Shown here: in pieces, positions 14,701 through 36,061 of the stretch
Layout of the letters: each line of letters begins with the position of its first letter
Numbering within the stretch: the stretch's first letter is position 1
Origin: an uncultured Erysipelotrichaceae bacterium
GTDB lineage: Bacteria; Bacillota_I; Bacilli_A; RFN20; CAG-826
NCBI GenBank assembly: GCA_902791935.1
Contig: CADAXQ010000005.1
Coordinates: 1 to 64,000 of the forward strand
Reading direction: 5' to 3'
Length of the DNA: 64,000 nucleotides
Program-made: the position numbers and the translations under genes
Notes under the pieces: model-generated
What the model was told of the DNA's origin: nothing
Database searches by the model: none
What the model saw: only the letters and a program-made list of their open reading frames with translations

Positions 14701-14705
14701 TATTC

Positions 14706-14795
14706 CCGTGAAGAGCAAAACCGGAGCAATCCGGCGACGCAAAGCTGTAGGGTCCATCTTGGATAGCCAGTTGCCCCAAATTTGATAGAGGCAAC
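14706..14795 (+). ncRNA. Cyclic-di-GMP-I (GEMM) riboswitch 1
   Basis: The aptamer core is clear: a 5-bp stem closed by a GCAA tetraloop (CCGGAGCAATCCGG), then CGACGCAAAGC, GGGTCC and ATAGCCAGTTGCC. After it, GGCAAC (14790-14795), next to the AGAGG ribosome site and directly before the ATG, can pair with GTTGCC (14770-14775) in the aptamer's conserved 3' strand. Ligand binding would free the ribosome site, predicting an ON switch acting on translation. The aptamer class is established knowledge; the switching direction is inference. Confidence 0.92.
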
Positions 14796-15572: not shown

Positions 15573-15575
15573 GGT

Positions 15576-18500: not shown

Positions 18501-19262
18501 GCTAACGCACAACGTACCGATCGTACAACCATCAATGAAATTAAAACCACAAATACCTATGAATATGCCTATCCGAATGGGGTGTCTTTCGTGGATTCTA
18601 CGACCGCGACTGTAACGGCCTCCGACAGCGTGGGCCTCACGTTATCCCCCTCTTCCTACCAAGGCGCCATCTCAGTGAAACGTACCGATACGACGGTTGC
18701 CTACACGAATACTTCCAATACTGGCATTTCTGCCTGTTTTATCGGGGATTCTGTCACCTTAACGGGCAACGGAACAACGATCACGACGGAAACCTATGTC
18801 TCTTTAGTCACGGAAACAGAGAAATCGCAGACCATATTGGATTACAACACCTCTACAGATGAAGAAACCAAGACGGTTTATAAAGAAGATAAAGACGGCA
18901 ATAAGACCACCCAGATTAACGATGGGAATGCCACATCTGGCTGGGGTGACGCCGATGTCGAGATTGAAGCTGGAACCGATGGCTGGCATACCGAAGCCGT
19001 TGTCAAGAATGTCTATGTCAACGGAAAATCCGTTACGGTCACAGTCAATTCAACCTATGCCTATACTCATGACGAGACCGCGAATACCTACTATTATTCG
19101 TTAACCGGTTATCAAGTCACAGTAAAAGGCGATGTCGAAGTCAAGGTAACGGCAACCCAAGTCGCTGACGGCATTGTGGTCTCCTTATTAACGGACGCTA
19201 CGAATAACACCTACACGACCCTCGTCATCAACGTGCCACAGACCATCGCGGCATCGAACTAA
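15576..19262 (+). CDS. Giant secreted surface protein, GLUG-like N-terminal region
   Basis: A 1228-residue protein with a SipW-type N-terminal signal (AAYTFTWFS near residue 28). Residues ~50-230 resemble GLUG-type beta-helix repeats of bacterial surface proteins: DPYVINRPFHLYNLA, DLDMTGWTLPPIGTTDHPF, IVGFFGVVGKIG and VKNLYLNNVAV. The rest is low-complexity Ser/Thr/Tyr/Asn sequence predicted to be beta-rich, with few Cys. No LPXTG, membrane anchor or choline repeats are present at the C-terminus, so retention could be by assembly with the smaller upstream protein. Translationally coupled to that gene. A terminator follows. Role as adhesin or fibre tip is inference. Confidence 0.78.
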   Translation: MKHKFSLRTFLLIVLGSTALATCAASAAYTFTWFSNQESLGKRINGETDGAYFARGTGTADDPYVINRPFHLYNLAWLQYTGYFGDNECYFIIEKDLDMTGWTLPPIGTTDHPFIGHVNGYDTTHAQGQEHAAVVSNLTVSNEFSDYNRHPGAITSVSNVNIVGFFGVVGKIGQDYSSSASSIVPSVKNLYLNNVAVNDKTSNTLIGIAAGYVNGVVEGVGITGDSSLSVPSGGATAFGNYTQNVSDYTSVGYCEKAFRSSLFNKEITLQASTPMTGTKSESGSGSDTGWGGSIDMKSMYDHIKPLYENSTIYQYSTEENVSLSFDASGNAIPSQSAVSGANDDVPYRTSWRYWNGHNYNYDYGYDSYNNENDGGNTTAQYSFVQRQSTSQFLYLSGRATYTVPSSSLTQNITAPTSPNGTTPRAISDGNGNYLALSKTGLSNSTSSSNGNTVWYFENDAIYTLDPYHNFAKIYLYDDNGTLSTSSTVQTTWHYSSNDSALSSSKGNYLLCYQRQWLLSKTRQITQTQYTIGYSSYYLSINNGRPSSTRSSSTAAKFYTDSNGYFYTVINGNIAYLVLDSPSSSSYRSSVAFSSDIDTAAFKKSGNYLVAEYGGTTWYLYQYGASAYEEEYYYYYSNPTSYTFTTNSILVKTNLSSNTNYTVSNLDATYATQSTYYPLSFDATSTSKVSTKNTGYVVSGAYEDSGIKADIRVSQYPITNINGSTASSSSSSVDPNKVYTINASGSNTISDASAYQKFTDSLNSMNTVLSTSSNVVYGLHFMNASISKNHLITVPYASINGKEYSQYELPEDAIDFQLRDKGYINFFAGTYFSGNDSFFSLHRIFRDNSNSIDDIKEISKIYHYTADMTAGKHYAYVYQYTDGTFSSPYWFRTIDGKSTKCKIGTRTPMSEDELSATTTSAPAGYTSYFDTAWIKKQSSLTKNAVYYFEVPVNEGEYALGSVDGGTGAYLMYLDIGANAQRTDRTTINEIKTTNTYEYAYPNGVSFVDSTTATVTASDSVGLTLSPSSYQGAISVKRTDTTVAYTNTSNTGISACFIGDSVTLTGNGTTITTETYVSLVTETEKSQTILDYNTSTDEETKTVYKEDKDGNKTTQINDGNATSGWGDADVEIEAGTDGWHTEAVVKNVYVNGKSVTVTVNSTYAYTHDETANTYYYSLTGYQVTVKGDVEVKVTATQVADGIVVSLLTDATNNTYTTLVINVPQTIAASN

Positions 19263-20566: not shown

Positions 20567-23500
20567 TTAACGTTGATAGTTCAATGCCGTAATGAAGTCT
20601 TGCGTGCTTAAGCCATGCACCTTGCCGCCATCGATATAGTAAGGCACGGCCATGTCATAACAGAAGTCACGTTCATCTTGGCTCGCAACCCCATTCGCAA
20701 TCGTAATGAAGTTGTTCTCCTCTAAGGAAGTAGCCATCCGGATGAACGAAGAGGTCGAAGACGGTGACAACAACGAATCCTGCAAGAGGTCACGAGAAAT
20801 AGCGACCGCTTCAATGCCGAGACTCTTTAGGGCAGGAATACCAATACGTTCTGGCTGATAAGAACGAACCGCGAAACGAATGCCTAAGGGGCGAAGCATC
20901 GCAAGCACGGGACGTAATGTTTCTTCATGTCCTGCCAAATCCCCACATCCGAGCGATAAGAAGAACGAATCTTTCGGGAAACGATGTTGGGTCATGAAAT
21001 GCTTCATGAAGGGCAAGAACTGATCCGCCAATAAGGTGTTTGGCGAGACATAGACGAAGAAGGCACGAATCCCCGATGTCTTTAACGTCGTATCCCCATA
21101 GTTATCAAAGAATTGCCCGACGTTTTGAAGCACGGCTTCATCAAAGGAGGTGACTAATCCGCCTTCCACGGCAATCGGCATGAACTCACGGTCGGAAATG
21201 CGTTCGTGATAGAGGCCTTCTAAGCCAAGGCTAATCTGAATGCCAGAGATATGGGAGGTGGAGGTTTCGGTGACGGCACTAAGCGATAAGGCAACCGCAT
21301 TCGTCCGTAACGAGACGTCGAGCAATTGTCGGAGGTAGTCTTTCCGTAACGCTTTCCGAACGCGCGAACGACCGACTTCGAGTAAGAAGCCATCGCCGAC
21401 TTTGACGGAACGGTCTAACTCCGTCTTAATCATCGACATCATTTCGAAGTTGCTGGCCGCTTCGGTGGGGTAACCAATCGCACTATAGGCGAACGTGGGA
21501 GAGAAGAATGCGCCACTAAAGGCGATGGGGGCTTGAATCACTTCCGCCAAACTTTCGGCAAAGTACACCATGGCGCTCTTGGACGTTGAACGTAATAAGA
21601 ACGACAACGTATCTTCATCGTAACGATACGTAAAGTCGCCATAGCCGGCATCTTGGATCTTCCGTACTAAGACTTGCCGTAAGTTTTCTGTGTTTTCACT
21701 AGGGAATTTCACGGCAAAATCGCTGACGTTCGTCAAACGGACCGAGACGACATAACCCGTGCCACGATTTCGAATTTCTCTCCCGAGGTCATTCGATAAC
21801 GCCTTGGCATTAAAGACGCCAAACTTAGCATCAAAGAGATTCGAGGAGACGGCTGAAGCCGTTTGTTTTTCGATTAAAATCGTCGCGGCATCTTTCGATG
21901 AGGAACGGTAATTCACCATGGATAGTGTTTGTTCCGCCGGTCCAAGTGGTGCGATGACGCGTTTCACCGTACCCATTCTTAACGGACATTCCTCACAAGG
22001 CGTATCCCGCCCCATTAAGGCTTTGAAACAATATTCCCCGACTTTCGCGTCTGGGAAGTTCTTCTCGACTAAGTTGGAGAAATGTAATAGCCGATATGTC
22101 TTGGCATTCACTTGATAAGCCAAACGGCCATGACGAGACAACAAGGCTTCAACGAGATTATTCGTATCTAAGGCGTTCTCTTTTTCTTGGATGGTGACTA
22201 ACATCGAAGAAATCAAAGAGAACGATAATTCGGTTGCTTCGCGGTCCGCTAACGTGAATTCATCCCGCCGTTGCACCGATAAGTAATACATGAAGCCATA
22301 GAGCTGATTTTGATACATGACCGGGGCAAACACAGCAGAGGCGACGCCTAAAGATTGTAACATCTCACCCACTTCTGGTGGCAACATCGTCACATCATTG
22401 ATAAAGGTGGCTGCTTCTTGACGGCAATACGAAACCAACGGGGCGATCTCTTCGCTCCCGATTTGATCCTGCGTAGCCAATAAACGGAATCCTTCTTTGC
22501 CATCTTTGATGTTCTCTTCCATCATGATGCCATAACGGTTCGTTTTGTCATCACGCCGTAAGAAACCGCAAACGTCATAATGCATCTCGCCACACGCATA
22601 CGTCATATAATCCGTCACAATCTTCACGGATTGGGATAACGCATTCGCGGAACGGAATTCCCGAAGATAACGTTCACTGGCCGCCAAGGCAATGACACGA
22701 CGGGGTGTATTGCCAAAAGACGGGTCAGGTAAAGCGGGAGCGCTATCGGTGGGAACCATCGAAACGGGTTCCGCATCTTTTTCAAGTTGGTTCTTTGCTT
22801 CGCTTAATAATTTCGACCCAGCGACAAATGGAAAGACAGCAACCCCGATACGGGCCGAATAATACGTCACGGCATCATATTCTTTCTCAATGATGCTGGG
22901 GGAGAAAATCGCCACGAATTGACGGCACATCTCTTGGAATTCCGGGAAAGCAGGTAGCGAAGGCAAATACGCGTAATAGAAGCCGTTTTCTTGTTTGGCC
23001 ACTAACGTAGGCTGGAATTGCAGCCGTAACGTGCGAAGTAGCGTTTCATCCACGCGGTCTGGAATCGGATCCGAGCCATACGCCTTCACGGCCAAAACGG
23101 CAGAACGGTACGAAGAAGATTCGCGTAAAGCCGCTAACACCGCTTGGGTCATCTCTTCTGGGGCCATCATCTCAGAAGAAGAAATGTGATGTTGCACATA
23201 TTGCCGTTCTTCTTGACGGATGGCCAAGAGGTTATTGATACGGCTTTGTAACCGATTTAAGGTGGGAGAACGATAATTCGCATGTGACAAGCGAATTCGG
23301 CCTGCTTCAAAATTTTGTAACTGCTCGCTGAATTCTTGGGCAGCGGCCGATGTTTCATGGATGGATTTCCGGTAACTATGGAATAACCAACCCGTCATGA
23401 AAGCGGCGGCTAACACAAAGAACACCAATAAGCTTAAGAAAATCGTGAGATAAAGCTCATTCTCACGGTAGAAGAAAGACAGAATGGCAAAGACAATCAC

Positions 23501-23596
23501 CGCAACGCCCGAGAAACCAATGGCACTGACGACGCCAATCGCGTTCTTTAGCGCCTGTTCCATCTTTTCTACGTTAGTGTGTTCCGTGCTGCTCAT
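20567..23596 (-). CDS. Membrane GAF / degenerate GGDEF-EAL protein
   Basis: About 1009 residues. Two membrane helices lie within the first 75 residues, then a coiled region, a degenerate GGDEF-like module (~150-280), a GAF-like domain (~325-475), a PAS-like segment with CEECPLR (~495-560), a second GGDEF-like module (~590-735) and an EAL-like barrel (~740-1000). The EAL signature is replaced (GIQISLGLEGLYHE) and the usual downstream acidic and Lys residues are not found, so it is probably a c-di-GMP binder or scaffold rather than an enzyme. The start at 23596 has GGAGGAA upstream; an ATG at 23617 would lack one. It overlaps the preceding gene by 23 bp. Confidence 0.75.
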   Translation of the reverse strand: MSSTEHTNVEKMEQALKNAIGVVSAIGFSGVAVIVFAILSFFYRENELYLTIFLSLLVFFVLAAAFMTGWLFHSYRKSIHETSAAAQEFSEQLQNFEAGRIRLSHANYRSPTLNRLQSRINNLLAIRQEERQYVQHHISSSEMMAPEEMTQAVLAALRESSSYRSAVLAVKAYGSDPIPDRVDETLLRTLRLQFQPTLVAKQENGFYYAYLPSLPAFPEFQEMCRQFVAIFSPSIIEKEYDAVTYYSARIGVAVFPFVAGSKLLSEAKNQLEKDAEPVSMVPTDSAPALPDPSFGNTPRRVIALAASERYLREFRSANALSQSVKIVTDYMTYACGEMHYDVCGFLRRDDKTNRYGIMMEENIKDGKEGFRLLATQDQIGSEEIAPLVSYCRQEAATFINDVTMLPPEVGEMLQSLGVASAVFAPVMYQNQLYGFMYYLSVQRRDEFTLADREATELSFSLISSMLVTIQEKENALDTNNLVEALLSRHGRLAYQVNAKTYRLLHFSNLVEKNFPDAKVGEYCFKALMGRDTPCEECPLRMGTVKRVIAPLGPAEQTLSMVNYRSSSKDAATILIEKQTASAVSSNLFDAKFGVFNAKALSNDLGREIRNRGTGYVVSVRLTNVSDFAVKFPSENTENLRQVLVRKIQDAGYGDFTYRYDEDTLSFLLRSTSKSAMVYFAESLAEVIQAPIAFSGAFFSPTFAYSAIGYPTEAASNFEMMSMIKTELDRSVKVGDGFLLEVGRSRVRKALRKDYLRQLLDVSLRTNAVALSLSAVTETSTSHISGIQISLGLEGLYHERISDREFMPIAVEGGLVTSFDEAVLQNVGQFFDNYGDTTLKTSGIRAFFVYVSPNTLLADQFLPFMKHFMTQHRFPKDSFFLSLGCGDLAGHEETLRPVLAMLRPLGIRFAVRSYQPERIGIPALKSLGIEAVAISRDLLQDSLLSPSSTSSFIRMATSLEENNFITIANGVASQDERDFCYDMAVPYYIDGGKVHGLSTQDFITALNYQR

Positions 23597-24344
23597 AGAA
23601 GAGTTCCTCCGCGGCATTGAAGTCTTGACGGTTATCCATCAAGATCTTGGCTAAGATATGCCCTACCTTCGGCATGGCTTCTAAGCACTTGCGCCGCCAA
23701 GTTAAGAATTGATCTTCATGGTCTAGTTCATAAACCAAGACCCGAATCGACAATAAACTGACGTGACGGCTATAACAAGTAAAGGCAATGCCACCACTAG
23801 AGGTGTCATAGCCCATCAATAAGCTTTGTACCGACGCGTAATGTTTTTGTTTGATGGCGTCATATTGTTTCTTTGCCGTCATGACTTTGGTGCCTGATAA
23901 GAGGTAACCACGTTGCAAATACGCTTCGTTAAACGCATAACCGGCTTCTTCGGCTTTCTTGTTGAGGTCATTCGACGCCAAGAAATATGAGGGTTGATTA
24001 GGAAATTGCCCATAATTGGTGGCAAAGAATGGGCTGTAGCGCACATGTTGGAAGTAATAACGGTCAACGACGAGTAAGTCCCCTTGATGCATGTCGGGGC
24101 TTAAGGAAACCGCCGGTCCGATGTTCACCACTAAGTAGGGGTCATAATGATCGATTAACATGGCCGTGACGGCCGACGTAATCATATTGCCATAACCCGT
24201 CGCGGCAATCGCCATGTCTTCAATGCCAAACGAACCACGATAAACACGAATATTCCCCGGCAATTCATCCACGGAATTCGAAGTGGTAAACCGCGAGACA
24301 AAATAAAGGATGTCGTCTTCGCCTTGTCCTAAGATGAGAATCAT
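23574..24344 (-). CDS. Degenerate nucleoside-phosphorylase/Pfs-fold protein
   Basis: A 256-residue protein with the MTA/SAH nucleosidase fold: AIAATGYGNMITSAV near residue 50, VVNIGPAVSLSPDMHQGDL near 88, and YDTSSGGIAFTCY near 195. The last stretch aligns with the family's DMESAAIA motif, but the ribose-binding Glu is replaced by Ser. Catalysis as a normal nucleosidase is therefore doubtful; a nucleotide-sensing role is possible. Its ATG overlaps the stop of the EAL gene (ATGA). The position between two c-di-GMP-type proteins suggests a signalling function, which is inference. Confidence 0.65.
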   Translation of the reverse strand: MILILGQGEDDILYFVSRFTTSNSVDELPGNIRVYRGSFGIEDMAIAATGYGNMITSAVTAMLIDHYDPYLVVNIGPAVSLSPDMHQGDLLVVDRYYFQHVRYSPFFATNYGQFPNQPSYFLASNDLNKKAEEAGYAFNEAYLQRGYLLSGTKVMTAKKQYDAIKQKHYASVQSLLMGYDTSSGGIAFTCYSRHVSLLSIRVLVYELDHEDQFLTWRRKCLEAMPKVGHILAKILMDNRQDFNAAEELFYEQHGTH

Positions 24345-25918
24345 TCTTCTTTGCCTCCTTTCGGGTTCGTCCCTTCAAAGGGGTTATGCGCGAGTAACGC
24401 TTCAAAATTCGCTTTATCTAATGGTTTCGCGAAGTAATACCCCTGAATCGCGTCTAAGTCATGCGCCGAAAGAAGCGAAACTTGTTTGGGGTTCTCTACG
24501 CCTTCGGCAATGACCCGCATATGTAACCCATGCACCAAGTAAATAATCGAAGCCACAAGATCTTCAGACTCTTTGCTTAATTCAATGTCGTCAATAAAGG
24601 ACTTATCCAGCTTCAAAACATCAAAATCGATGTTCTTTAAAACCGACAACGAAGAATAACCAATCCCGAAGTCATCGATGGATGTCGATAAACCTAAGGC
24701 TTTGATTTTCCGAATGACGAACGAAATGAAGTTCGCGTCTTGGGCAGCCAAAGATTCGGTTAACTCGATTTCGATCTGATGGGGATCAATCTTGTATTTC
24801 TTAATCGTTTCGGCAAAGAAAGCGATTAAGCCGGGGTCGTAAACCGTACGACGCGATAAGTTCACAGAAATCACAAGCGGTCGTTGTCTTGTATCACGCC
24901 ACGACGCAATGTCACGGCACACCGCTTCAAACACATAATGGTCAATCGCGACAATCTGACCGCTGGCTTCGGCGTAGGGAACAAAGACCGAAGGCGGTAA
25001 GAAACCACGGCGCGGATGGCGCCAACGAATTAAGGCTTCGGCCCCGTAGAAACATTTTTTCTTCACGTCCCACTTCGCCTGGTAATAAATGATGAATTGG
25101 TTTCGTTTTAAACCTTCTTCGATGTCGGCGGATTGTTCGCGGTCGCTTAAGGATGCTTGCTTCATGGATTCGGCATAAAGCTGCAAATCCCCCGAAGGGC
25201 GGTTGGCCGCATGGAAACGCGCGGCAATCGAAGCCCGTTCAAAGTTTTGACTGGGCGTTTGTTCTTTTTGATAGGGGGTAGCGCCTAACATCACGAACGC
25301 CATCGGTAACGAAGGACGACCTGCCAAAACGGCATTGATGTCATCAGCAATCTTCCGTAGAGAAGCATAGAAATCATTCGCATTCGAAACTTCGGCATAG
25401 AACAAGAAATCGCCTTGTCCATTCACCGCATAGTTCCAGTTCGGTTTGTCTTGTAACTCTTTACGAACGGCTTCGACACAAATACGGTTCAGTTCTTGCA
25501 TATCCACCAACCGGAACGAGAATAACGGTTGGTTATTGAAGCCATGGAGATAAAGAATGCCACCATAAGACACCATGTTGTGACGGTTATGGATGGATTT
25601 GCTTCCGACCGTGTCAAAGAAGGTATCTTCGTCCCAAATGGTCACATCGAATTGTTCACCGAATAACGTATTGAGCCATGCATGGTGGCGAAGTAGTAAT
25701 TTACGGTTCGCGAAAAGTTGCACGATGAGTAGCGAGAATGCAATCGTTAAAAAGAAACAAACTAACGCAACGATGCCAAGCACCCAAGGACGATTTTGAG
25801 AAACGCCTTGGCAAAGCAACACCACCGAAACCACCACCGCGGCAGTCGATAATCCAAGTAACGCAAAGATCACCAAGATCCAAACCTTTAATTGTTCGAG
25901 TTGTTTTTGATATCTCAT
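24341..25918 (-). CDS. Membrane EAL-domain c-di-GMP phosphodiesterase
   Basis: A 525-residue protein with two N-terminal membrane helices (~12-36, 46-70), a degenerate GGDEF-like region (~80-245, GQGDFLFYAEV at the active-site position) and a C-terminal EAL domain (~265-510). The EAL motifs are intact: GAEALIRWRHP (Glu294), SVNLSRR, IELTES, IDDFGIGYSS, LKLDKSF, AEGVEN and QGYYFAKPL. It should hydrolyse c-di-GMP to pGpG at the membrane. Because the same operon is headed by a c-di-GMP riboswitch, it could provide negative feedback. AAAGGAG precedes the start. Confidence 0.92.
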   Translation of the reverse strand: MRYQKQLEQLKVWILVIFALLGLSTAAVVVSVVLLCQGVSQNRPWVLGIVALVCFFLTIAFSLLIVQLFANRKLLLRHHAWLNTLFGEQFDVTIWDEDTFFDTVGSKSIHNRHNMVSYGGILYLHGFNNQPLFSFRLVDMQELNRICVEAVRKELQDKPNWNYAVNGQGDFLFYAEVSNANDFYASLRKIADDINAVLAGRPSLPMAFVMLGATPYQKEQTPSQNFERASIAARFHAANRPSGDLQLYAESMKQASLSDREQSADIEEGLKRNQFIIYYQAKWDVKKKCFYGAEALIRWRHPRRGFLPPSVFVPYAEASGQIVAIDHYVFEAVCRDIASWRDTRQRPLVISVNLSRRTVYDPGLIAFFAETIKKYKIDPHQIEIELTESLAAQDANFISFVIRKIKALGLSTSIDDFGIGYSSLSVLKNIDFDVLKLDKSFIDDIELSKESEDLVASIIYLVHGLHMRVIAEGVENPKQVSLLSAHDLDAIQGYYFAKPLDKANFEALLAHNPFEGTNPKGGKEE

Positions 25919-25920
25919 GG

Positions 25921-26787
25921 TTACTCTTCTCCTTTCGTCTTGTTCTTCTTTTTGGCTTCTTTGTCGAGCTCTTTCCGGAGCCTAACCTTCTCTTTGGCCT
26001 TCTCTTTTTCCATCTGTTCACGGAGGTCTTTTTTGTAATTGTATTTCTCTTCGAAAAGCAATGCTGCTTTTTCGTCATTCGGATCGACACCTGCTTCTAA
26101 CATGGCGGCATGAAGTTCTTGCTCATAGGCCTTCTTTTCTTTGCGGTACTGCTTGGCCGTATCAATCGTCGAAGAAAGAATGATGCCAAGGATCGGAACT
26201 AAGATTAACACTGGCCCTAACCAAGCGGTACGTCCTGCGGCAGCACCCGCTTGCGGGGACACTAACGTCAAGAATGTCCCAAAGCCATCGGAATGCCATA
26301 CGACCGTCCCGATATAATACTTTTCATCCACCGATTCCCAAGCGGTTTCGGGGCAGGTGTTATTCGGTTGCCCCGCGCACGACCACGCGTGTAGGTTATC
26401 CCCGCGCGTAAGAAAAGTCCGCGTTCCGTCTTCATTCACCTGAATCGAAAGCACTCGGTGCGTATCGGGATTCTGAAGTCTTGGATAGTAAAACGTGATG
26501 ACGTCCCCTTCTTTGATTTGGGAGGGGTCGTCATGACGAATGATAATGCCCGTGCCTTGATTCAAGGAATCGGGATTATCCCCAACCATGGAATCCGTCG
26601 CGACATATAAAAACGAATGCCCAAAGGCGGAAGGTACGCCATAATTCCCGGCGTGATTGGCTGTCACCACAAACGAGACTTCGATATATAGCATCAAGGC
26701 GACGAGTAAGCCTAAGATGACATCGACAATCACCGACAGCGCGTTCTTTTTGCGCTTGGTCTTCGTCTCTTCTTGGGCCTCGTTCAT
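25921..26787 (-). CDS. sipW: SipW-type signal peptidase I
   Basis: A 288-residue membrane protease of the ER/archaeal-like type. After an N-terminal helix (~18-42) come the catalytic Ser66 in ATDSMVGD, His110 in NPDTHRVLS, replacing the Lys of ordinary bacterial SPase I, and the conserved Asp130 in TRGDNLHAW. A second helix lies near ~188-205, then a charged cytoplasmic coiled tail of about 75 residues, which is unusual. SipW enzymes process TasA-like fibre subunits, and several such proteins are encoded nearby. Its ATG overlaps the stop of the upstream gene by 4 bp. Confidence 0.9.
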   Translation of the reverse strand: MNEAQEETKTKRKKNALSVIVDVILGLLVALMLYIEVSFVVTANHAGNYGVPSAFGHSFLYVATDSMVGDNPDSLNQGTGIIIRHDDPSQIKEGDVITFYYPRLQNPDTHRVLSIQVNEDGTRTFLTRGDNLHAWSCAGQPNNTCPETAWESVDEKYYIGTVVWHSDGFGTFLTLVSPQAGAAAGRTAWLGPVLILVPILGIILSSTIDTAKQYRKEKKAYEQELHAAMLEAGVDPNDEKAALLFEEKYNYKKDLREQMEKEKAKEKVRLRKELDKEAKKKNKTKGEE

Positions 26788-28796
26788 GGACGTTTCCTCG
26801 GCGCATGGTTAGACAAACGAATCTTCTTTTGCCGTCTTGACGTGACCTTAATCCGCTTGGCTAAGGCAATTCTAGCCTTCTTTGGCGGTTGGACGCGAAT
26901 CCAAGCCACATCTTCTTTTGGATTGGTTTCTTTGCCTTTTAAGACCCGAATCTTCACGATGGGGGCAGGCGTTACGGCAATTGGTTTCATAATCTTAACG
27001 CGACGACGATCTTCGGGCATCGCTTCGGGTGCTTTCGAAACCGTCACGACTGGTGTTGGTTCTGTCAGAACGGGGGCAGTCGTAACCTGTGGCGCCGGGG
27101 CAGTCACAAATCTTGCCACATAAGGCGTGGCATCAAAGACAACAGACGGCAACAAAGGATCCGATGGTGCCGTCGGAGTAAATACGGCCGGTGTCACCAC
27201 GAAGGGCGTTTCTCTTGGCAAGGGGGTTGGCGCGGCCATTGGGGTCGGTTGTTTTTGATGCTCTAAGTTAGCCATAGTGGCGTTTAAGAATGGCGTTGCG
27301 CTGGGGAACGCTTCTTGGCCACGCGATAACATCTCTCCGGCTTTTTCTTCGGGGATGGAGGGATCTAACAAAGACATGCCGTCTTGGCGGTCTTCTTTGC
27401 CTTGTCTTCTGACGGCATAACGCATGGAATCCAAACGGGCTTCTTCTTCTAGACGATCAAAGTCTTGGGCTTTCCGTCTTTCCCATTCTTCACGGGCAAG
27501 TCGTTCGACTTCTTGGCGGATGGCTTCATCTCTGGCTTTCCTGGCCGCTTCTTCGGCCGCTTCGAGTTGCCGTTGTCTTTCTTCGGCTTCTTCGGCCATA
27601 TCAATTGCTTTTTGGGCGTTGATGGCTTCGTCTAACAAGAGCTTCTTAGCCACATCTTGCTTGTACTTCTCTTCCATCGCGAGCCGTTCCGCTTTCGCTT
27701 CTTCGGGCGTTAAGGCCATCGGATTTGGCTTCTCGTCTTTGTGATCCGGGAATTGATCATATAAGAATCGTCCATCATGGAATGTCTCGTCTTCCAAGGT
27801 GAATAGTACTTTCGGGCGGATGGTCTTTTGTCTTGTGACGGGGTGATCAATCTTCCGATTCGCGATGGCGTGGCTATGTAACGTCAACATATCGGCCACG
27901 ACCAAGCCATAGATTTCTTCAAAATAGGCGTCATCGAACTCTTGTTCGGTTTCTTTGACGTCATAGGTGATGCCTAAGTTCGTGTAGTTATCAATGAACG
28001 TCCAAAGCTTATAGGCGGCATGGTAGTCTGGATTCTTTAATAACAAGTTCGTTAAGTGAATGGGGTTAGAGACGTCTTTCGCGCCTTGCATCTGCTCCAT
28101 AAACGGGGAATGTAAGTAATAGGCGCAACGTTCGCGTAACGTCGCCAAACGAACGAGCAAGTTCGCGTTGGCTTCTTGCTTGCCTTGGTCTTCGGAAGGA
28201 ACGGATACTTTGACTCTAGTATCGACTTCATATTTCGCCCCATCAATTTCAGAGGTGGCATGAATGAGCAATAAATCCGAGTTAAACGTTTCGCCGTGCG
28301 ATTTGATGAATTGATAACGTTTTTCAATGAATAACGCGCATTTCTTCATCAACGTCATGACAAAACGGTTTTCATAGATTTGAACATCCGTTTCGGCATG
28401 GATCGTTAAAATCCGTTCCGGGGTGATGTTCCCGTTTATATCGACGGAGTGCACGAATTGGGTATGCGAAGCCAAATGCACCACGGATTCCGCGGTGATT
28501 TTCTTCGCTAAACCAGCATTCACGACTTCCGCTTCATCGCGAATAAATGTGCGCGGATTTAGAATAATCCGATCTAAGGCATCAAATCCTTGTTCAAGTT
28601 CCTCGACAAAGCGCGCATCAAAAGACTTGTCTTCCAGCCGTTCGGTTTGCCGGACGAAGTTCTTCCCTTCATCGGCGACTTGGCTGACAAGCGCTTGATA
28701 AGGCTTGGAAGCACTGGCCAAGGAATGCATCTTCTTGGCGTATGCTTTCTGAGCCGAAACGAGTTTTTGTTGCGCGGAAGGGGTTTTCTCTGCCAT
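26784..28796 (-). CDS. DUF2357-family protein with coiled-coil and Pro-rich tail
   Basis: A 670-residue protein. Residues ~60-330 resemble DUF2357, the McrC-associated domain, with HAETDVQIYENRFVMTLMKK near 127 as the best-known signature. From ~370 to 470 a charged coiled coil follows, then a Pro/Thr/Ala-rich stretch and a very basic C-terminus. I see no PD-(D/E)xK nuclease motifs, which McrC-type restriction proteins carry at their C-terminus. DUF2357 proteins pair with McrB-like AAA+ ATPases, and the gene directly upstream encodes one. A structural or regulatory partner of that ATPase is inferred. AAGGTG precedes the ATG. Confidence 0.72.
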   Translation of the reverse strand: MAEKTPSAQQKLVSAQKAYAKKMHSLASASKPYQALVSQVADEGKNFVRQTERLEDKSFDARFVEELEQGFDALDRIILNPRTFIRDEAEVVNAGLAKKITAESVVHLASHTQFVHSVDINGNITPERILTIHAETDVQIYENRFVMTLMKKCALFIEKRYQFIKSHGETFNSDLLLIHATSEIDGAKYEVDTRVKVSVPSEDQGKQEANANLLVRLATLRERCAYYLHSPFMEQMQGAKDVSNPIHLTNLLLKNPDYHAAYKLWTFIDNYTNLGITYDVKETEQEFDDAYFEEIYGLVVADMLTLHSHAIANRKIDHPVTRQKTIRPKVLFTLEDETFHDGRFLYDQFPDHKDEKPNPMALTPEEAKAERLAMEEKYKQDVAKKLLLDEAINAQKAIDMAEEAEERQRQLEAAEEAARKARDEAIRQEVERLAREEWERRKAQDFDRLEEEARLDSMRYAVRRQGKEDRQDGMSLLDPSIPEEKAGEMLSRGQEAFPSATPFLNATMANLEHQKQPTPMAAPTPLPRETPFVVTPAVFTPTAPSDPLLPSVVFDATPYVARFVTAPAPQVTTAPVLTEPTPVVTVSKAPEAMPEDRRRVKIMKPIAVTPAPIVKIRVLKGKETNPKEDVAWIRVQPPKKARIALAKRIKVTSRRQKKIRLSNHAPRKRP

Positions 28797-28806
28797 AGGT
28801 TACACC

Positions 28807-30372
28807 TTACGCGTTCGTCTTTAGGAGCGTCTTGATCTTCGCTTTAGAGCGTTTGAATTCCCCTTTGCCGAACAACTTGGTTAATTCGGCGTCTAAGGCG
28901 ATTAATTCATCGCGTAAGAACGCGACATTCAATACTTCGAACTTCTTTAAGATCTTGGATTCAAACATATAGTCGACCGCATCGAGTTCTGTGCCACCGC
29001 AGGCGACATAGCAAGGCACAAACAATCCTAACTGCTTCATGATACGGTTACCAAAGGCAAGACGGAAGTGGGCAATAACAAACGTATCGAGTTGTTGGAA
29101 CTTTTCTAGCGTCTTGGCCGATAACGGATAGTCTTGCATCGCGTTTTGATAGAGCTTCATCAAATAATCAAACGGCAATGGCAAAGACTCCGTGAATGGG
29201 GCTTGGAACGCAATACCTTTGTTATCGAAGAATAACGACATGGCACGGTCATAGACCTTATCGGTGATGGTAAAAGTAGAATCATCATTATTGGCGGTGC
29301 CGACAAACCAAATGTTTTGCGGAATTAACAAACGGCCGTCTTTCACGTGCTTTGGATCGTTTGGCTGCGGAGCAGCAACCAAATTGATATTCCATTCGGC
29401 CACGTTTGGCATTTCCATGATGGATAAAAATTCCGCGAAATAGTATTCAATACGGGCCAAGTTCATTTCATCGAGTACGATTAAGTTCACGTCATCGCGG
29501 TAGGTGGCTTCGTAGACGGCGCGTAAGAATTCCGTTTCGGTGAATTTGTGGGTGAAGTCGTTATAGTAACCGAGTAATTCAGACCGGTCTCTCCAAGATG
29601 GTTGCACCGAACAGATGGTCGCGTTATGTTGGAAGAAACGTCCTAAGGCATAGGGCAAAGAGGTTTTACCCGTGCCAGAGATACCTTCGAGAATGATGAT
29701 TTTGCCCGTGCCCATTGCCGCAAAGAAGACCCGAATCGTATCAATCGTGTAATAAAGGCCCATTTGGGAGGCAGCAAAGTTCCGGAACCGTTCGCAGATG
29801 CCTTTTAAGTCAATCGTTTCGGCATCGGCAGGAAGTTGGGTATGTAACGAATATCCTTCGTATTTCTGATCAACCAAGGTAAGACGTGGAAAACGGATTT
29901 CGTCAGATTCTGGTTTCTTTTCTTCTTCGGCATTCGTGTCGACGACTTCTCCATTGGCTTCGGCCACGTTCTCAGGGGCGCCAGCAACGCCCATCGAATG
30001 CACTTGTAATCCTAAAATCCGATCTTTTTCTTGAATCGTTTGGTATAACTCAACATTTAATTTTTCGACTTCTTTGCGTAACTTTTCTTCATTCGCGCCA
30101 GCTTTCCGGAAGCGCACATACTTCCGGATGACCCAGAATAACAAGAAAAGCAAGCCGCCAATTAACGCGATAAACAAAATGGCGAATAACACGAAAAAGA
30201 ACCAACCCGCACCCCCGAATTTCGGAGAATATTGGCTATATAGCGAATGATAATAGCTGAATTCATTCGGAACGGGTGCCCATGGCATTGCCCAACGCAT
30301 GTTGAACCATAAGCCAAGGTTTTGGAAAAAGGCGACAATCATCTCCTTTAAATATTCAAAATAAGCAGACAT
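28807..30372 (-). CDS. Membrane-anchored McrB-like AAA+ ATPase
   Basis: A 521-residue protein with one strong membrane helix (~57-82) and a short coiled region (~93-120), then an AAA+ domain. Walker A is GISGTGKTS at 230-238. Walker B is LIVLDEMNLARIEYYFAEF from 297, the typical McrB form. Then comes WFVGTANNDDSTFTITDKVY near 355, with an Arg just after it. McrB proteins drive modification-dependent restriction with McrC, but they are cytoplasmic; membrane anchoring and the operon with SipW and fibre proteins point elsewhere. It could power assembly or export of the fibre. AAGGAG precedes the start. Confidence 0.85.
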   Translation of the reverse strand: MSAYFEYLKEMIVAFFQNLGLWFNMRWAMPWAPVPNEFSYYHSLYSQYSPKFGGAGWFFFVLFAILFIALIGGLLFLLFWVIRKYVRFRKAGANEEKLRKEVEKLNVELYQTIQEKDRILGLQVHSMGVAGAPENVAEANGEVVDTNAEEEKKPESDEIRFPRLTLVDQKYEGYSLHTQLPADAETIDLKGICERFRNFAASQMGLYYTIDTIRVFFAAMGTGKIIILEGISGTGKTSLPYALGRFFQHNATICSVQPSWRDRSELLGYYNDFTHKFTETEFLRAVYEATYRDDVNLIVLDEMNLARIEYYFAEFLSIMEMPNVAEWNINLVAAPQPNDPKHVKDGRLLIPQNIWFVGTANNDDSTFTITDKVYDRAMSLFFDNKGIAFQAPFTESLPLPFDYLMKLYQNAMQDYPLSAKTLEKFQQLDTFVIAHFRLAFGNRIMKQLGLFVPCYVACGGTELDAVDYMFESKILKKFEVLNVAFLRDELIALDAELTKLFGKGEFKRSKAKIKTLLKTNA

Positions 30373-30392: not shown

Positions 30393-31508
30393 TCAGTCAA
30401 TCAGTGGTTGCACAAGGCCTTTGAAGCCTAATCCTAACGTAAAATGGCCTTCGCCAATGTTGTCGACCATATCCAAATCCCAGCCTTCGAGATAAATGGT
30501 GACAACAAGACGTGTCGGAACGCCTGCCGATAAAGCCAATAAAGGATGCATGGTGGAGGGATCATATTGCCCCACGCCGTCGGGAAGCGATAGTTCTTGT
30601 AACGTATACGTAGTTTCGTGCGCAAACGATAAGCCGGCTGCTTCGCTTTTGGCTAAATTAAATGGGGCAATGCCAGCGCGATGGCTTGCCTTAAAGGCGG
30701 TGTGGTTCTCGTTATAGGCGGGGGTATCTACGTCGTATGCTTCGTCATACACAAGCGGAGCATCATCGGCGTATTCGCCATACACGACTTCTTTGCCGTT
30801 ATTATCATCATAATAACCATCGCCATTTAAGTCGAGCACACCCCCAAAGACGGTGGTGGATCCGACGTCCGTGTTCGGTTCCCAGATGGTGAAACCCCGG
30901 GAAGAATAGAACGACACACGGCAAGCATGAACGATGTTGTCCAGATCTTCGGCCGTGATGCTTTTATGGAACGCTTCCGCGGTGGCGACATTCAAATCGT
31001 GTAATGGTTTGGCATAACAGCTTTCCGGGTCTAAGAAGAGATACATATCCCGGTTGGCTTTGAGAAAGAACTCAAATTGATAGTAACCCGTTTGGGCCAC
31101 ATAAATTTGATGGGGTTTCTCTTTATCGGCATACGAGCGACGTAACACCGGAAAATCTGTTTCCGGGTTGGTTTCCTCGTTTAGCCAAAGACTTTGGTAA
31201 TTCGAAGATAAGTCATGTAGTGTCGAATTGGGTTGATACCGCGCGAAGTGCGATTCTAAGATTTCATCATTCACTTCATGGTAGTAATCATAACCATCAT
31301 TATTATTTTTTAAGCCGATTTCAAAATCGGCTTCGTCGTGAATTGAGAAATCAAGTTGCGATACTTTCGCGTGTTCGGATACTTCAAACCAAGCATAGGT
31401 GCTGGTCACCGAAGCGGCAAACGTCAGGGCAAAAGACAAAACGCCAGCCAGAAATAGATTCCGGTTGGACATGATGGTTTTTGCTTTCTTGTGGTGACGA
31501 TATGCCAT
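30393..31508 (-). CDS. Secreted TasA-like protein with SipW-type signal
   Basis: A 371-residue exported protein. The N-terminal helix (~14-36) is followed by TSTYAWFEVSEHAKV, a good SipW substrate pattern. The body is beta-rich, with LDFSIHDEADFEIGLKNN after the cleavage region and a C-terminal VVTIYLEGWDLDMVDNI that resembles the VWLEG strand of the other fibre candidates here. No anchor motif. GAGGA precedes the start. Probably a fibre or accessory subunit of the operon. Confidence 0.75.
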   Translation of the reverse strand: MAYRHHKKAKTIMSNRNLFLAGVLSFALTFAASVTSTYAWFEVSEHAKVSQLDFSIHDEADFEIGLKNNNDGYDYYHEVNDEILESHFARYQPNSTLHDLSSNYQSLWLNEETNPETDFPVLRRSYADKEKPHQIYVAQTGYYQFEFFLKANRDMYLFLDPESCYAKPLHDLNVATAEAFHKSITAEDLDNIVHACRVSFYSSRGFTIWEPNTDVGSTTVFGGVLDLNGDGYYDDNNGKEVVYGEYADDAPLVYDEAYDVDTPAYNENHTAFKASHRAGIAPFNLAKSEAAGLSFAHETTYTLQELSLPDGVGQYDPSTMHPLLALSAGVPTRLVVTIYLEGWDLDMVDNIGEGHFTLGLGFKGLVQPLID

Positions 31509-31517
31509 GAAGTGTCC

Positions 31518-32591
31518 TCAATTGGTGGATTCGGAAGTAAACGTCATCGTAAACGTGAAAGAAGACCCTTCCGGGGGTTGCCCATAGCAATCCGGGTCGG
31601 CGCCTTCTAGCCAAACGACAACGGTATAACGCATGGTTTGTAGCGGTTCGACAGTCACGTTCTCTCGATCGAAGATCTGCATGTTCCCGACAAACTCATC
31701 GCAATAACCATGATTGCCATCATAGTCATAACGGGCCAACCGTAAGTTATCGACCATTGAGAAGTCACTAAGGCATTCACGGTAGTCGCTATCGCCGCCT
31801 GGCTTCGTTCCATGCCCTTGCTGATTCGCATTGGCATAAACGGTAAAGGCGTGCGTTTCTTCTTCCCCTTCCGCGGCACAGGCATTTTCATACAAGGCAA
31901 CGCGTAAGTAAGAATATGGTTGAACGGCTGAGTTTTCTGGAGAAGTGTAACTGTCTATCGCCATCGACAAGCGATAGGTGACGGGATCAGATGCCGAAGA
32001 GTTAATGGCATAGAAGGTGTATACCAACGCCAGATTGACTGGGGAGGCATCACTTTGGCCCGACATAGCGCGGGAATAATTGTGAGAGCCACTTAAGTCT
32101 TCTTCATCTTTAAGACTGTCAACATAACCAAACACATCTTTGGCCGTTGTGGTATAGGCATTGTCTAAGCCGGCAGCCAAGAGAACATCACTCATAGAGC
32201 CAGAAGTACGGTTTTCACTGAGCTTCAGGTTTTGGGAGATGGTGTGTTGGTCTAAACGGATGGTAAATTGTCCCGAAACGCGTCCTAAAAAAGCAATGAT
32301 GCCAAGCATCAAGGTGCCTACGGCGCCGACTGATGTCACGATCAGAGCAATACGCTTCTGCTTTTGCCGACGGGCATAGCGACGGGAAGTATCGCTCGGC
32401 GTCGAAGTATCCGGTAAAGGATCTTTCGGCTTTGCGTTTTGCTTCGGGTTGTCGTTAGGCTTCGTAGACGATGAAGCTGGTGACGGTTCAGAGGGATTCG
32501 TAACGGATTCGTCGATTTTTGGATTTTCCGATTCTTCCAAGCGAAAAGGCCTCCATTCGGGTGAGTGGATACGAAGAAAAAACCACTTCAT
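31518..32591 (-). CDS. Membrane-linked TasA-like protein with long cytoplasmic N-terminus
   Basis: About 357 residues from the ATG at 32591 (GGGGAAAAG upstream; a 15-codon longer start lacks a ribosome site). A Ser/Pro/Asn-rich cytoplasmic part of ~75 residues precedes a membrane helix (RIALIVTSVGAVGTLMLGII). The outside part is beta-rich and ends TVVVWLEGADPDCYGQ followed by a TFTMTF strand, like the other fibre candidates. It lacks the clear AWF cleavage pattern, so it may stay anchored and act as a base or nucleator. First gene of the eight-gene operon, behind riboswitch 2. Confidence 0.7.
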   Translation of the reverse strand: MKWFFLRIHSPEWRPFRLEESENPKIDESVTNPSEPSPASSSTKPNDNPKQNAKPKDPLPDTSTPSDTSRRYARRQKQKRIALIVTSVGAVGTLMLGIIAFLGRVSGQFTIRLDQHTISQNLKLSENRTSGSMSDVLLAAGLDNAYTTTAKDVFGYVDSLKDEEDLSGSHNYSRAMSGQSDASPVNLALVYTFYAINSSASDPVTYRLSMAIDSYTSPENSAVQPYSYLRVALYENACAAEGEEETHAFTVYANANQQGHGTKPGGDSDYRECLSDFSMVDNLRLARYDYDGNHGYCDEFVGNMQIFDRENVTVEPLQTMRYTVVVWLEGADPDCYGQPPEGSSFTFTMTFTSESTN

Positions 32592-32703
32592 GTCTGACTT
32601 TTCCCCGCCCGTTCGAAGTGTTTCTTCGCACTTCATCAGAATCCAGTTGAACGAGTAAGTTATGCAGACGAGCAGCCCTAAGGAACAAAAAATGATGTCA
32701 ACT

Positions 32704-32820
32704 CAGTTGCCCACAAAGCAGAATCATTTTTGCTTTGTTCCGCGGTAACTGGCTGCCATCTCTTAGGGGAAGGCCCTTTAGCTTTGCGTCGCCAGATTTC
32801 TCTGACTTTGCGTTTCTCGT
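32704..32820 (-). ncRNA. Cyclic-di-GMP-I (GEMM) riboswitch 2
   Basis: On the minus strand a GAAA-tetraloop stem (CAGAGAAATCTG), CGACGCAAAGC, AAAGGGCC and ATGGCAGCCAGTTACC make up the aptamer (about 32820-32742). Downstream, GGGCAACTG (32712-32704) can pair with CAGTTACC (32751-32744), enclosing a nested 8-bp stem ACAAAGCA/TGCTTTGT. This looks like an anti-aptamer arm. How it reaches the start codon ~110 nt later is not clear. Confidence 0.92.
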
Positions 32821-32826
32821 GAGTCT

Positions 32827-32855
32827 ATTATGAAATCCTTAGACAACCTTGTCAA
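32827..32855 (-). promoter_or_regulatory. Sigma-A promoter of the minus-strand fibre operon
   Basis: TTGACA (32855-32850), a 17-bp spacer and CATAAT (32832-32827). Transcription would start near 32820, at the 5' edge of riboswitch 2. Confidence 0.88.
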
Positions 32856-33462: not shown

Positions 33463-33552
33463 GCCTATTTCGTGTAGGATGCCGCGCATTTGTGCTAGAT
33501 TTTGATTGTCCAGAAAAAATCTAAAGGCCACAAAGAATGCGAGGCAACCCAC

Positions 33553-34803
33553 ATGAGTAATTTTAGCAAGTTAATTGACAGGTTCGATAGGCTTTTCATG
33601 TACTACCTGGAAAAGGCCATAAGCACGTTCGACAAGCCGACAAGGAAGTTCTACATAGATACAATATACGGAATGCTGAAGGGCCAGAGCATAATACTAA
33701 GCGACATCGCGCATTCCCTTAACGAGAAGATAACCCCCAAGAAAACGATAGAGAGGATTTCCAGGTTCCTTTCCAGGGAGTATGACCTGGATTTCAGGAA
33801 TGGCTTGCTGTCGCTTGCCATCTCCATGATGCCAAAGAACGAGCTCAAGGTCTTCTCCGTCGACGACACCGATGTCTCGAAGCCGTATGGAAAGTGCTTC
33901 GAATCGCTCGGGAAGGTCAGGGATGCGTCGTCCATCGACGGCGCGATCGGCAATGGCTACAGGGTGAGCTGCATTACAGCGCTGACCGCATCGAGCAAGC
34001 ACCCGATGCCCATTTACGACGTCTTCCACTCGGAGACGAAACCAGGGTACCTCTCGGCAAACGCATATACGTTCGAAGGCATAGAGTTCGTGTGCTCGCG
34101 GATTGGCAAATGGGAATCCGTCTTCGTCTTTGACCGCGGGTACGACGACTACAAGGTAATCGATTTCGTTGCGTCCCATCTGCAGTATTTCGTCATTAGG
34201 GCGAGAAAGAACAGGAAGATAGTGGTGAAAACGAGGAAGGCGGGCCTGATCAGCGAGGGAAAGAGGAAGAAGGGAAAGATACTCATACCGTTTACGTACA
34301 AGGGGAGCAAGCTTGTCGCCAAGGCATCGCACCTAAGGGTCAGACTGCTCGACGGAGGCGAATACTTTGCCGTCTATTGCTACCTTGGCGAATCGAGCGA
34401 GCCGATGACACTGCTCACAAACAGGCCAATCAACTCAAAGTCGGATGTGGTGTCCGTGGTCATGAACTATGTATCGAGATGGAAGATAGAGGAGCAGTTC
34501 AGGTTCAAGAAATGCGGGTTCAACTTCGAGGATTTCAGGGTAAGGTCGCTCAATAGGATAAACAACCTTACGATGTGCCTTGACGCGGCAATAACCATAA
34601 TGTCGTGCCTCATCGAGGGGAATTCGGAACTGTACAAGCGCCTGATATCGATGTCAAAGCACCTGAAGGGCGACGATGCATACATAAAATTCTACCAGCT
34701 CCTCTCGGGGATAAAGACATTGCTGGGCCACAAGGAAATGGGGATAAAGTCAAAGCAGCAGATCGAGCACAGGAAAAAGGCCAGGCAACTAACCCTATTC
34801 TAA
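33553..34803 (+). CDS. IS4-family DDE transposase
   Basis: About 416 residues from the ATG at 33553 (MSNFSKLIDRFDRLFMYYLE, GAGG upstream). The catalytic aspartates lie in SVDDTDVSKPYGK and FDRGYDDY. The glutamate lies in YVSRWKIEEQFRFKK, which fits the Y-(2)-R-(3)-E-(6)-K signature of IS4-type transposases. The gene is complete, so the element is probably active or recently so. The sub-group is not assigned; a 5-bp duplication is shorter than the IS4 norm and would fit an IS1634-like branch. Confidence 0.92.
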   Translation: MSNFSKLIDRFDRLFMYYLEKAISTFDKPTRKFYIDTIYGMLKGQSIILSDIAHSLNEKITPKKTIERISRFLSREYDLDFRNGLLSLAISMMPKNELKVFSVDDTDVSKPYGKCFESLGKVRDASSIDGAIGNGYRVSCITALTASSKHPMPIYDVFHSETKPGYLSANAYTFEGIEFVCSRIGKWESVFVFDRGYDDYKVIDFVASHLQYFVIRARKNRKIVVKTRKAGLISEGKRKKGKILIPFTYKGSKLVAKASHLRVRLLDGGEYFAVYCYLGESSEPMTLLTNRPINSKSDVVSVVMNYVSRWKIEEQFRFKKCGFNFEDFRVRSLNRINNLTMCLDAAITIMSCLIEGNSELYKRLISMSKHLKGDDAYIKFYQLLSGIKTLLGHKEMGIKSKQQIEHRKKARQLTLF

Positions 34804-35131: not shown

Positions 35132-36061
35132 ATGAAAAACAAAACAAAATTAGTGCTTGGCCTTTCCATTCTCACTGCTGCCGCTTTAACTGCTGGCGCA
35201 ACCGGAACCTTCGCTTGGTTCACCACCAACCGTAAGGCCACTGCTACCTTCAACCATATCACCGCGAAATCCGTCGAAGGATCTCTTACCATCGCGATGG
35301 GTTCGTTAACCGAACCAGGGTTGGGTGAAAACGGCAACGACTACAAGCAGACGACCGCCTCTTTAACCGGTTCCACTTCTGCTATGACCGATGTCAGCTC
35401 TGCCGATGGCATCACTTTCGCGCATCCAAACTGGACCGATAAAGCTGGAAATAAAGAAAAAGTCCACGGAATCACTGATGTTTCCGGCAAAACCGAAGCA
35501 AATTTGAAAAAATATGGTACTGGCGGATACTGGACTGCATATTACATCGGTTTAAAGAACAACGGCGGCGCAGCGGCTAATGTTTATCTCAATGCTGAAT
35601 CTACTATTAGTGGCGCTAGCACCGAAGCAGGCGATCAAAAAACAAAAGATGACTCTGCTGCAAGCTGGACGCGTGTTGCTATTAACACCGTCGGCGAAAC
35701 CAAACCGACCTCCACTCTTACCACCTCAGCGAGCACTAAAATCATCCAAAACGCCACTGACGATGCTTCTAAAAAATATGTTGCGCCAAACGATACCGCA
35801 GAAACGCTCGCTTTAGCTAATCTTCCTGATTCTTCGACATTGTTCAATGGCAGCACCACCAACAGCTTAAAAGAGGTCACCACTGCTGATAGCGATGATA
35901 AAGTTAAAAATCAATTGGTTTGCACCATCCCTGGCAATGGCGCAGTTCGCTATCTCACTGTTTCTGTTTGGCTCGAAGGTACGATGTCGGACAATCAAGA
36001 TGCAGCAATCGGTGGCGTTGTGAACATTGTGCTCAACTTTGCTGCTCGCACTGCTGCTTAA
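35132..36061 (+). CDS. Secreted TasA/camelysin-like major fibre candidate
   Basis: A 309-residue exported protein with a SipW-type signal: helix at ~5-24, then ATGTFAWFTTNRKATATFN. The mature part is Thr/Ser/Ala/Asn-rich, Cys-poor and beta-rich, ending with TVSVWLEGTMSDNQDAAIGG and a final VNIVLNFAAR strand, as in TasA-like subunits. Regular codon choice and a strong terminator suggest high expression. It has its own promoter and leader rather than a GEMM riboswitch, which would suit a main subunit regulated separately. It was separated from the fibre operon by the IS insertion. Confidence 0.8.
   Translation: MKNKTKLVLGLSILTAAALTAGATGTFAWFTTNRKATATFNHITAKSVEGSLTIAMGSLTEPGLGENGNDYKQTTASLTGSTSAMTDVSSADGITFAHPNWTDKAGNKEKVHGITDVSGKTEANLKKYGTGGYWTAYYIGLKNNGGAAANVYLNAESTISGASTEAGDQKTKDDSAASWTRVAINTVGETKPTSTLTTSASTKIIQNATDDASKKYVAPNDTAETLALANLPDSSTLFNGSTTNSLKEVTTADSDDKVKNQLVCTIPGNGAVRYLTVSVWLEGTMSDNQDAAIGGVVNIVLNFAARTAA

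Follow-up and report, generated by a model that had tools for sequence, protein, structure and literature searches.

The closest described relatives of the locus analysed here are the CoCoPALM systems, named by Bell et al. (eLife 2024; PMC11090510), in which an NxD McrB-like GTPase is joined to an FtsB-like membrane and coiled-coil domain. Their signal peptidases were taken to be pilus-assembly factors; the main text of that paper devotes a few sentences to CoCoPALM, gives no function for it and leaves the details for a later paper. The same main text describes the CoCoNuTs, which, when their McrC homologue has no nuclease, are reported always to carry a HEPN or other nuclease nearby (PMC11090510). 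Our literature search found nothing on CoCoPALM or on a SipW/McrB combination beyond this paper and its preprint, and some of the loci treated below may already be listed in its supplements. As for secreted fibres, known TasA fibres form through donor-strand exchange, assisted by a chaperone (PMC9674648, PMC10151520).

The window, by which we mean the whole stretch of DNA that was analysed, comprises 64,000 nucleotides from an uncultured Erysipelotrichaceae bacterium (contig CADAXQ010000005.1 of assembly GCA_902791935.1, positions 1 to 64,000). Its minus strand carries an eight-gene operon running from 32636 down to 20567; its genes are spaced by no more than about 20 bases, and in several places a stop overlaps the next start. 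Genes three and four, whose ORFs were both confirmed, encode an AAA+ protein and a DUF2357 protein (the pair). We think it likely that this pair works as a membrane-anchored module, driven by NTP, in the production of SipW-type surface proteins that c-di-GMP induces and that are probably fibre subunits. The leader elements and the genes, in operon order, are:

32827–32855, minus strand: sigma-70-like promoter TTGACA-17-CATAAT (11/12) from a consensus scan, ending 5 nt before the aptamer; suggestive only, as the scan of the region found 3 sites against 1.6 expected
32741–32822, minus strand: c-di-GMP-I riboswitch aptamer at the operon head (Rfam RF01051, 59.8 bits against a gathering score of 35)
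31518–32636, minus strand: ORF372, a 372-aa secreted protein with a SipW-type signal region followed by GQFTIRLDQ
30393–31508, minus strand: ORF371, a 371-aa secreted protein with a hydrophobic helix ending in TYAWF and then a strand-rich domain
28807–30372, minus strand: AAA+, a 521-aa, membrane-anchored McrB-like NTPase (PDB profile search, hhalign, motifs)
26784–28796, minus strand: DUF2357 protein of 670 aa, of the McrC N-terminal type, without a nuclease (PF09823)
25921–26787, minus strand: putative SipW/ER-type signal peptidase I of 288 aa (TDSM and DTHRV, a Ser/His dyad; TIGR02228 and SipW models)
24341–25918, minus strand: membrane EAL-domain c-di-GMP phosphodiesterase (PF00563, 1.4e-65)
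23574–24344, minus strand: MTA/SAH nucleosidase-like protein (PF01048, 3.9e-14)
20567–23617, minus strand: membrane protein with GAF and a diverged EAL-like domain (PF00563, 2.6e-18; GAF_2, 2e-5)

The MTA/SAH nucleosidase-like gene, between the EAL and GAF-EAL genes, is kept in most loci of the group.

The AAA+ protein and its DUF2357 partner

Judged by its sequence, the 521-aa protein is a McrB-like AAA+ protein with one predicted membrane helix, as the first-pass annotation had proposed from the Walker B motif and a helix at residues ~57–82; it is of the NxD type as PMC11090510 defines it. A PDB profile search with 15 AAA+ homologues returned McrB as the only match (6hz4, E = 3e-5), and the AAA+ core aligned with E. 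coli McrB at E = 4e-9 in hhalign. The elements of the protein are:

30127–30204, minus strand: membrane helix, residues 57–82 (hydropathy; 90 of 90 homologues)
29659–29688, minus strand: Walker A, EGISGTGKTS, residues 229–238
29461–29475, minus strand: Walker B, LDEMN, with D301, E302 and N304 invariant in the alignment
29281–29292, minus strand: NxD signature N-N-D-D, N361 to D364 (NxDD in 90 of 90 homologues)

The Walker B region reads LDEMNLARIEYYF (residues 300–312), and sensor-1 is N361 in 'NNDD'. Walker A, Walker B, the sensor-1 asparagine and the arginine after it are invariant across an alignment of 15 diverse AAA+ homologues. The helix is strongly hydrophobic (Kyte-Doolittle mean of 3.07 over 19 residues from residue 60) and is followed by a net charge of +5, from which an N-outside/C-inside orientation is predicted. 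The comparison across homologues that the annotation had proposed found a single strong hydrophobic helix before the AAA domain in all 90, with positive charge behind the helix in every one, so that the AAA domain should be cytoplasmic.

Behind this helix, residues 98–122 form a heptad-like conserved stretch in the 15-homologue alignment, and the N-terminal part of the protein as a whole consists of membrane helix, coil and linker. MrcB_N did not match in this part, while it did match in the E. coli McrB control. Alignment of the helix/coil domain with E. coli FtsB reached E = 0.18 in hhalign, and the predicted topology, with the coil inside, would be the reverse of that of FtsB. A 1111-residue AAA frame in a related genome (G304), considered as a possible AAA-DUF2357 fusion, turned out to be an open frame running upstream and not a fusion.

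The 670-aa protein is a DUF2357 protein without a nuclease. PF09823 (DUF2357) matched it at 6.7e-8, above the curated cut-off, with IYENRFVMTLMKK at residues 140–152 as the signature already noted at first pass. An AlphaFold2 model made with 73 input sequences divides the protein as follows:

27861–28775, minus strand: folded DUF2357 domain, residues 8–312, of high confidence (mostly pLDDT > 90)
27378–27707, minus strand: single 110-residue helix, probably a coiled coil, residues 364–473
26787–27377, minus strand: disordered Pro/Thr-rich stretch and basic tail, residues 474–670 (mostly pLDDT < 50; disorder at 474–638, then the basic end)

The last 30 residues have a charge of +12, and the model agrees with the coiled coil, the Pro/Thr-rich stretch and the basic tail that had been recognised from the sequence. 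The same annotation had seen no nuclease here, and indeed no nuclease family in Pfam was matched among the 73 DUF2357 sequences (the window protein and 72 homologues), while E. coli McrC, the positive control, was recognised at 2e-27; nor does any folded domain follow residue 312 in the model. A hidden nuclease was likewise rejected: a PDB profile search gave just a 30-residue similarity to PvuII, with no nuclease fold after it, and coiled coils. Foldseek with the model yielded no significant match, McrC being absent among the 50 matches listed, and a direct alignment with E. coli McrC was not reached, so that the label 'McrC-like' rests on PF09823 and the literature.

DUF2357 homologues range from 401 to 2331 aa, differing mostly in their coiled-coil or repeat tails, and some matched coiled-coil families in Pfam. 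Such variation would suit a pair that serves as anchor or scaffold, with the ring and its variable coiled-coil tail forming a cytoplasmic hub that fixes a surface fibre and NTP being used for hub assembly only; the system is moreover common in the wall-less Acholeplasmatales, whose surface structures need a cytoplasmic anchor. However, the invariant catalytic motifs exceed the needs of a static anchor, and Pfam searches of the DUF2357 homologues gave no cytoskeletal homology besides generic coiled coils. We consider a purely scaffolding role rather unlikely.

Giant DUF2357 homologues are encoded at L049 3270–10265 (2331 aa), L041 2210–8932 (2240 aa) and L148 11578–16788 (1736 aa). The giant tail of L148 is a repeated domain, and that of L049 ends in Ig-like repeats, which are usually extracellular and hence odd for a DUF2357 protein predicted to be cytoplasmic.

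Conserved neighbours and secreted proteins

Operon order is largely kept over 20 loci from the genus and order. Relatives numbered at least 371 in a scan of 84,980 species' genomes, and the 80 best come from rumen Bacilli, Acholeplasmatales, one complete Mycoplasmatota genome and Clostridia. The operon core is thus shared by Bacilli, Acholeplasmatales and Clostridia, and the carriers include the cultured Acholeplasma granularum and Paracholeplasma vituli; because these hosts are culturable, the function is directly testable. Within 6 kb of the AAA+ gene, the 77 loci with a readable AAA+ (many on incomplete contigs) contained a DUF2357 gene in 72 cases, SipW in 69, an ORF371-like gene in 55, an ORF372-like gene in 47 and EAL in 42, where the ORF371-like and ORF372-like calls may at their low end reflect the shared signal region only. 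The core order is SipW / AAA / DUF2357 / SipW with AWF-signal proteins upstream, the second SipW-like peptidase, on the other side of the pair, being found in Acholeplasmatales and Clostridia. Of 61 related genomes, 27 carry the AAA gene, and exactly these 27 carry the DUF2357 gene too; since their order is conserved in dozens of genomes, the pairing is not due to chance.

Among 114 other neighbours, a pool that leaves out genes already labelled as diverged GAF-EAL, EAL (26) and GGDEF (18) were the leading Pfam families, every other family having at most 3 members. PADLOC matches in this pool were scattered, with at most 2 members each, and no restriction genes recurred. The first-pass annotation had held that homologues lying mainly in defence islands would point back to restriction, and the neighbourhood is evidently of another kind. 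These data bear directly on whether the pair could be a membrane CoCoNuT-like restriction or abortive-infection system whose nuclease is supplied elsewhere. The AAA+ core does match the PADLOC candidate family PDC-M26A (2.7e-38, central part), and the main text of PMC11090510 treats related NxD systems as predicted RNA-targeting defence. That match is, however, confined to the AAA core, with no partner family matched, the operon contains no HEPN or other nuclease, and the conserved neighbours are a c-di-GMP riboswitch and secretion genes instead. A defence function thus appears very unlikely.

The likely role in making surface proteins directs attention to the secreted products. ORF371 and ORF372 both start in a hydrophobic stretch like that of SipW substrates, and the ORF372 family recurs at the operon head in related loci. 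AlphaFold2 modelled ORF371 with a mean pLDDT of 87 as a helix (residues 16–42) followed by strands, and an EGWD motif near its C-terminus is conserved in the alignment. Neither protein matched Pfam or NCBIfam, TasA and camelysin included, and a Foldseek search of the PDB with ORF371 turned up nothing significant (the top match, at E = 0.11, was to something other than TasA), by which a TasA fold was rejected. Because ORF371 matches no solved fold, the term 'fibre' is taken from the linkage to SipW. The signal peptidase scored 2e-12 with TIGR02228 (47.3 bits against a cut-off of 51.85) and 2.5e-8 with the SipW model, far below its cut-off, so that both scores lie under the curated cut-offs. The TDSM/DTHRV pair was found by eye. 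Every copy of the motif found in the family has His at this position, and none has Lys.

A further AWF-signal secreted protein (GTFAWFTTNRKATATFNH) is encoded at 35132–36061 on the plus strand, downstream of a DDE transposase gene (33502–34803); it matches the ORF371 alignment weakly (7e-8) and in the signal region only. At 40857–46319 on the minus strand, a gene adjoining an ABC sugar-transport operon encodes a secreted, beta-galactosidase-like protein of 1820 aa, which has carbohydrate-binding domains as well as a membrane anchor at its C-terminus.

The close company of the peptidase also raises the possibility that the pair is a regulator or quality-control device, extracting jammed precursors or toggling the signal peptidase in the manner of FtsH- or MoxR-type AAA+ proteins. 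The pair adjoins one or two SipW-like peptidases in a fixed arrangement, the AAA/DUF2357/SipW core is fixed while the numbers and sequences of subunits vary, and other AAA_5-type proteins act as chaperones (NorQ/NorD; PMC9976466). On the other hand, neither protein of the pair has a protease domain, and the loci of two related genomes (L154, L163) combine the pair with a giant surface protein but lack SipW, so that the peptidase cannot be its only target. We judge this role unlikely.

A tie to surface proteins, as supposed for the window pair, extends to relatives with other layouts, which are likewise membrane-anchored and likewise stand beside surface proteins. In a 600-aa class the neighbours of the pair are an ABC transporter and two proteins with AWI/AWV signals; in a tandem class AAA-DUF2357-AAA lies beside surface proteins of 950 to 1676 aa; and in a further class the pair is joined by an EAL-like protein and a surface protein of 1671 to 1908 aa. 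In the tree, members of the 600-aa class cluster together, as do those of the tandem class, and the loci lacking SipW fall within the 520-aa class, so that a loss of SipW need not break the link to surface proteins.

Several of these relatives show peculiarities of their own. The operons of the 600-aa class (L055, L060 and others) combine a paralogous AAA/DUF2357 pair, an ABC ATPase and a large permease with the two AWI/AWV-signal proteins; some DUF2357 members have a zinc-ribbon-like end, and the class is present in genomes without a SipW-type system. In two tandem loci (L157 5999–10659 and L158 4964–9598) the motor cores of the two AAA copies are identical and their membrane N-termini differ, as if by gene conversion, possibly giving one ring with two kinds of anchor. 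The genome under study itself encodes a further AAA/DUF2357 pair on contig C30 (L070 8866–11822), which is likewise membrane-anchored and shows zinc-ribbon-like motifs; it lies outside any SipW operon and clusters with lone pairs of a 900-aa class.

The c-di-GMP-I riboswitches

Besides the riboswitch of the operon, the window contains a second one that precedes two more genes for secreted proteins:

14704–14778, plus strand: second c-di-GMP-I riboswitch (Rfam, 51.4 bits against 35; genome-wide search)
14796–15572, plus strand: 258-aa secreted protein with an AWF signal, under the second riboswitch (from sequence)
15576–19262, plus strand: 1228-aa secreted protein with an FTWF signal and then a GTG..DPY domain, under the second riboswitch (from sequence)

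Both riboswitches are full-length aptamers (positions 1–87 of 87 of RF01051), and they were the only two of their kind detected genome-wide. Two of the three EAL proteins of the genome sit in this operon, and the only two GGDEF proteins found lie outside the window.

In most related loci Rfam likewise identified a riboswitch ahead of this operon, and a model built from 13 related-locus copies finds 62 copies in 80 wider loci. Specifically, a riboswitch lies upstream of the AAA+ gene on the same strand in 41 of the 77 loci, or in 41 of 52 when the 25 loci that lack one and have less than 4.5 kb of upstream sequence are left out. Across 61 related genomes it was present in 22 of 27 with the AAA+ gene versus 5 of 34 without it (p = 3e-7, uncorrected for kinship); two genomes (G046 and G056) have the AAA+/DUF2357 pair with no detected riboswitch.

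In 18 of the 62 copies, compared with 2% of shuffled leaders, the 3′ arm of the aptamer can form 8 bp or more with a stretch further downstream that precedes a T run. Such a terminator would form only when the aptamer is empty, so the ligand should turn the operon on. As the main leader of the window showed no clean terminator overlapping the aptamer, this ON mechanism is extrapolated to it from the family. At the second riboswitch, pairing of the 3′ arm is possible instead with GGCAAC, immediately ahead of the start codon. A small and a large secreted protein resembling those at 14796–19262 directly follow the AAA/DUF2357/SipW core in Acholeplasmatales, where this small and large pair is often preceded by a riboswitch of its own, single or in tandem (L136, L139, L141, L147).

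Proposed role and described systems

The functional argument proceeds by guilt by association throughout, and it is from the association of genes that we infer an action of the pair on the secreted cargo. With its nuclease lost, its seat in the membrane and an operon of surface-protein, peptidase and c-di-GMP genes, the pair probably serves to build the cell surface and not to destroy DNA. The suggestion of the first-pass annotation, that of a motor reused at the membrane, is largely supported by the missing nuclease, the helix present in every homologue and the non-defence neighbours, for what would by its sequence be a putative motor; the riboswitch, the SipW-type substrates and the EAL genes had found no place in that annotation.

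Going by the terminator geometry of the family, high c-di-GMP would bind the riboswitch and allow the operon to be transcribed. Sec would then export ORF372 and ORF371, and the SipW-like peptidase, to judge from motifs and linkage, would trim their signals. By homology, the membrane-seated AAA+ protein would have its N-terminus outside and its motor inside and would probably form a McrB-like ring, and the DUF2357 protein would be bound to it as an activator, as McrC is to McrB. In the weakest step of the scheme, cycles of NTP in this ring might act at the inner face to move, gate or anchor subunits or peptidase, and the tail with its long coiled coil and basic end might tie the ring to cytoplasmic partners. 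The EAL proteins of the same operon could finally bring c-di-GMP back down.

In its most specific form, which we offer tentatively as a possibility we do not yet favour, this would mean that a nuclease-stripped McrB/McrC-type GTPase motor powers or gates the assembly of SipW-type fibres on c-di-GMP command, its engine having been recruited from restriction systems and its variants working with an ABC exporter or giant anchored surface proteins. If the proposed role is confirmed, a machine of the cell surface would have arisen from a restriction-type motor, and an energised step would be added to the biogenesis of SipW-type fibres. A point against the proposal is that, to our knowledge, no ATPase belongs to the TasA fibre assembly pathway. 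These results also call for caution against regarding every McrB/DUF2357 pair as defence.

Compared with McrBC of E. coli, the window pair shares the AAA+ core and the paired DUF2357-type partner, and it differs in having neither the DNA-recognition domain nor the PD-(D/E)xK nuclease of McrBC, and in its membrane anchor and matrix-type operon. The TapA-SipW-TasA operon of Bacillus and the BsaA/SipW operon of Clostridium perfringens resemble this one in their SipW-like Ser/His peptidase and their secreted subunits, which here as there have a hydrophobic leader and a W/F motif. Unlike in the TasA operon, the window subunits have no sequence or fold match to TasA, and neither operon is known to us to contain an AAA+/DUF2357 pair or a c-di-GMP-I riboswitch.

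With the CoCoNuTs the locus has in common the NxD signature, the coiled coils and a McrC homologue that often has no nuclease, the difference being that Pfam and NCBIfam reveal no HEPN or other nuclease among the window operon genes. Of the CoCoPALM features given in the main text of PMC11090510, the NxD signature (as opposed to NxxD only), usually followed by D/E, the membrane helix with a coiled coil and the neighbouring signal peptidase are all present here, as is a coiled coil in the McrC homologue (helix 364–473), while the FtsB homology was not reproduced in the alignment described above. That main text is without c-di-GMP riboswitches, EAL/GGDEF genes, SipW-type cargo or group-wide nuclease loss. 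The window locus therefore fits CoCoPALM and its architecture is not wholly new; the c-di-GMP regulon and the cargo are added content, and a system that had been named without a function is now tied to c-di-GMP control and a defined secreted cargo.
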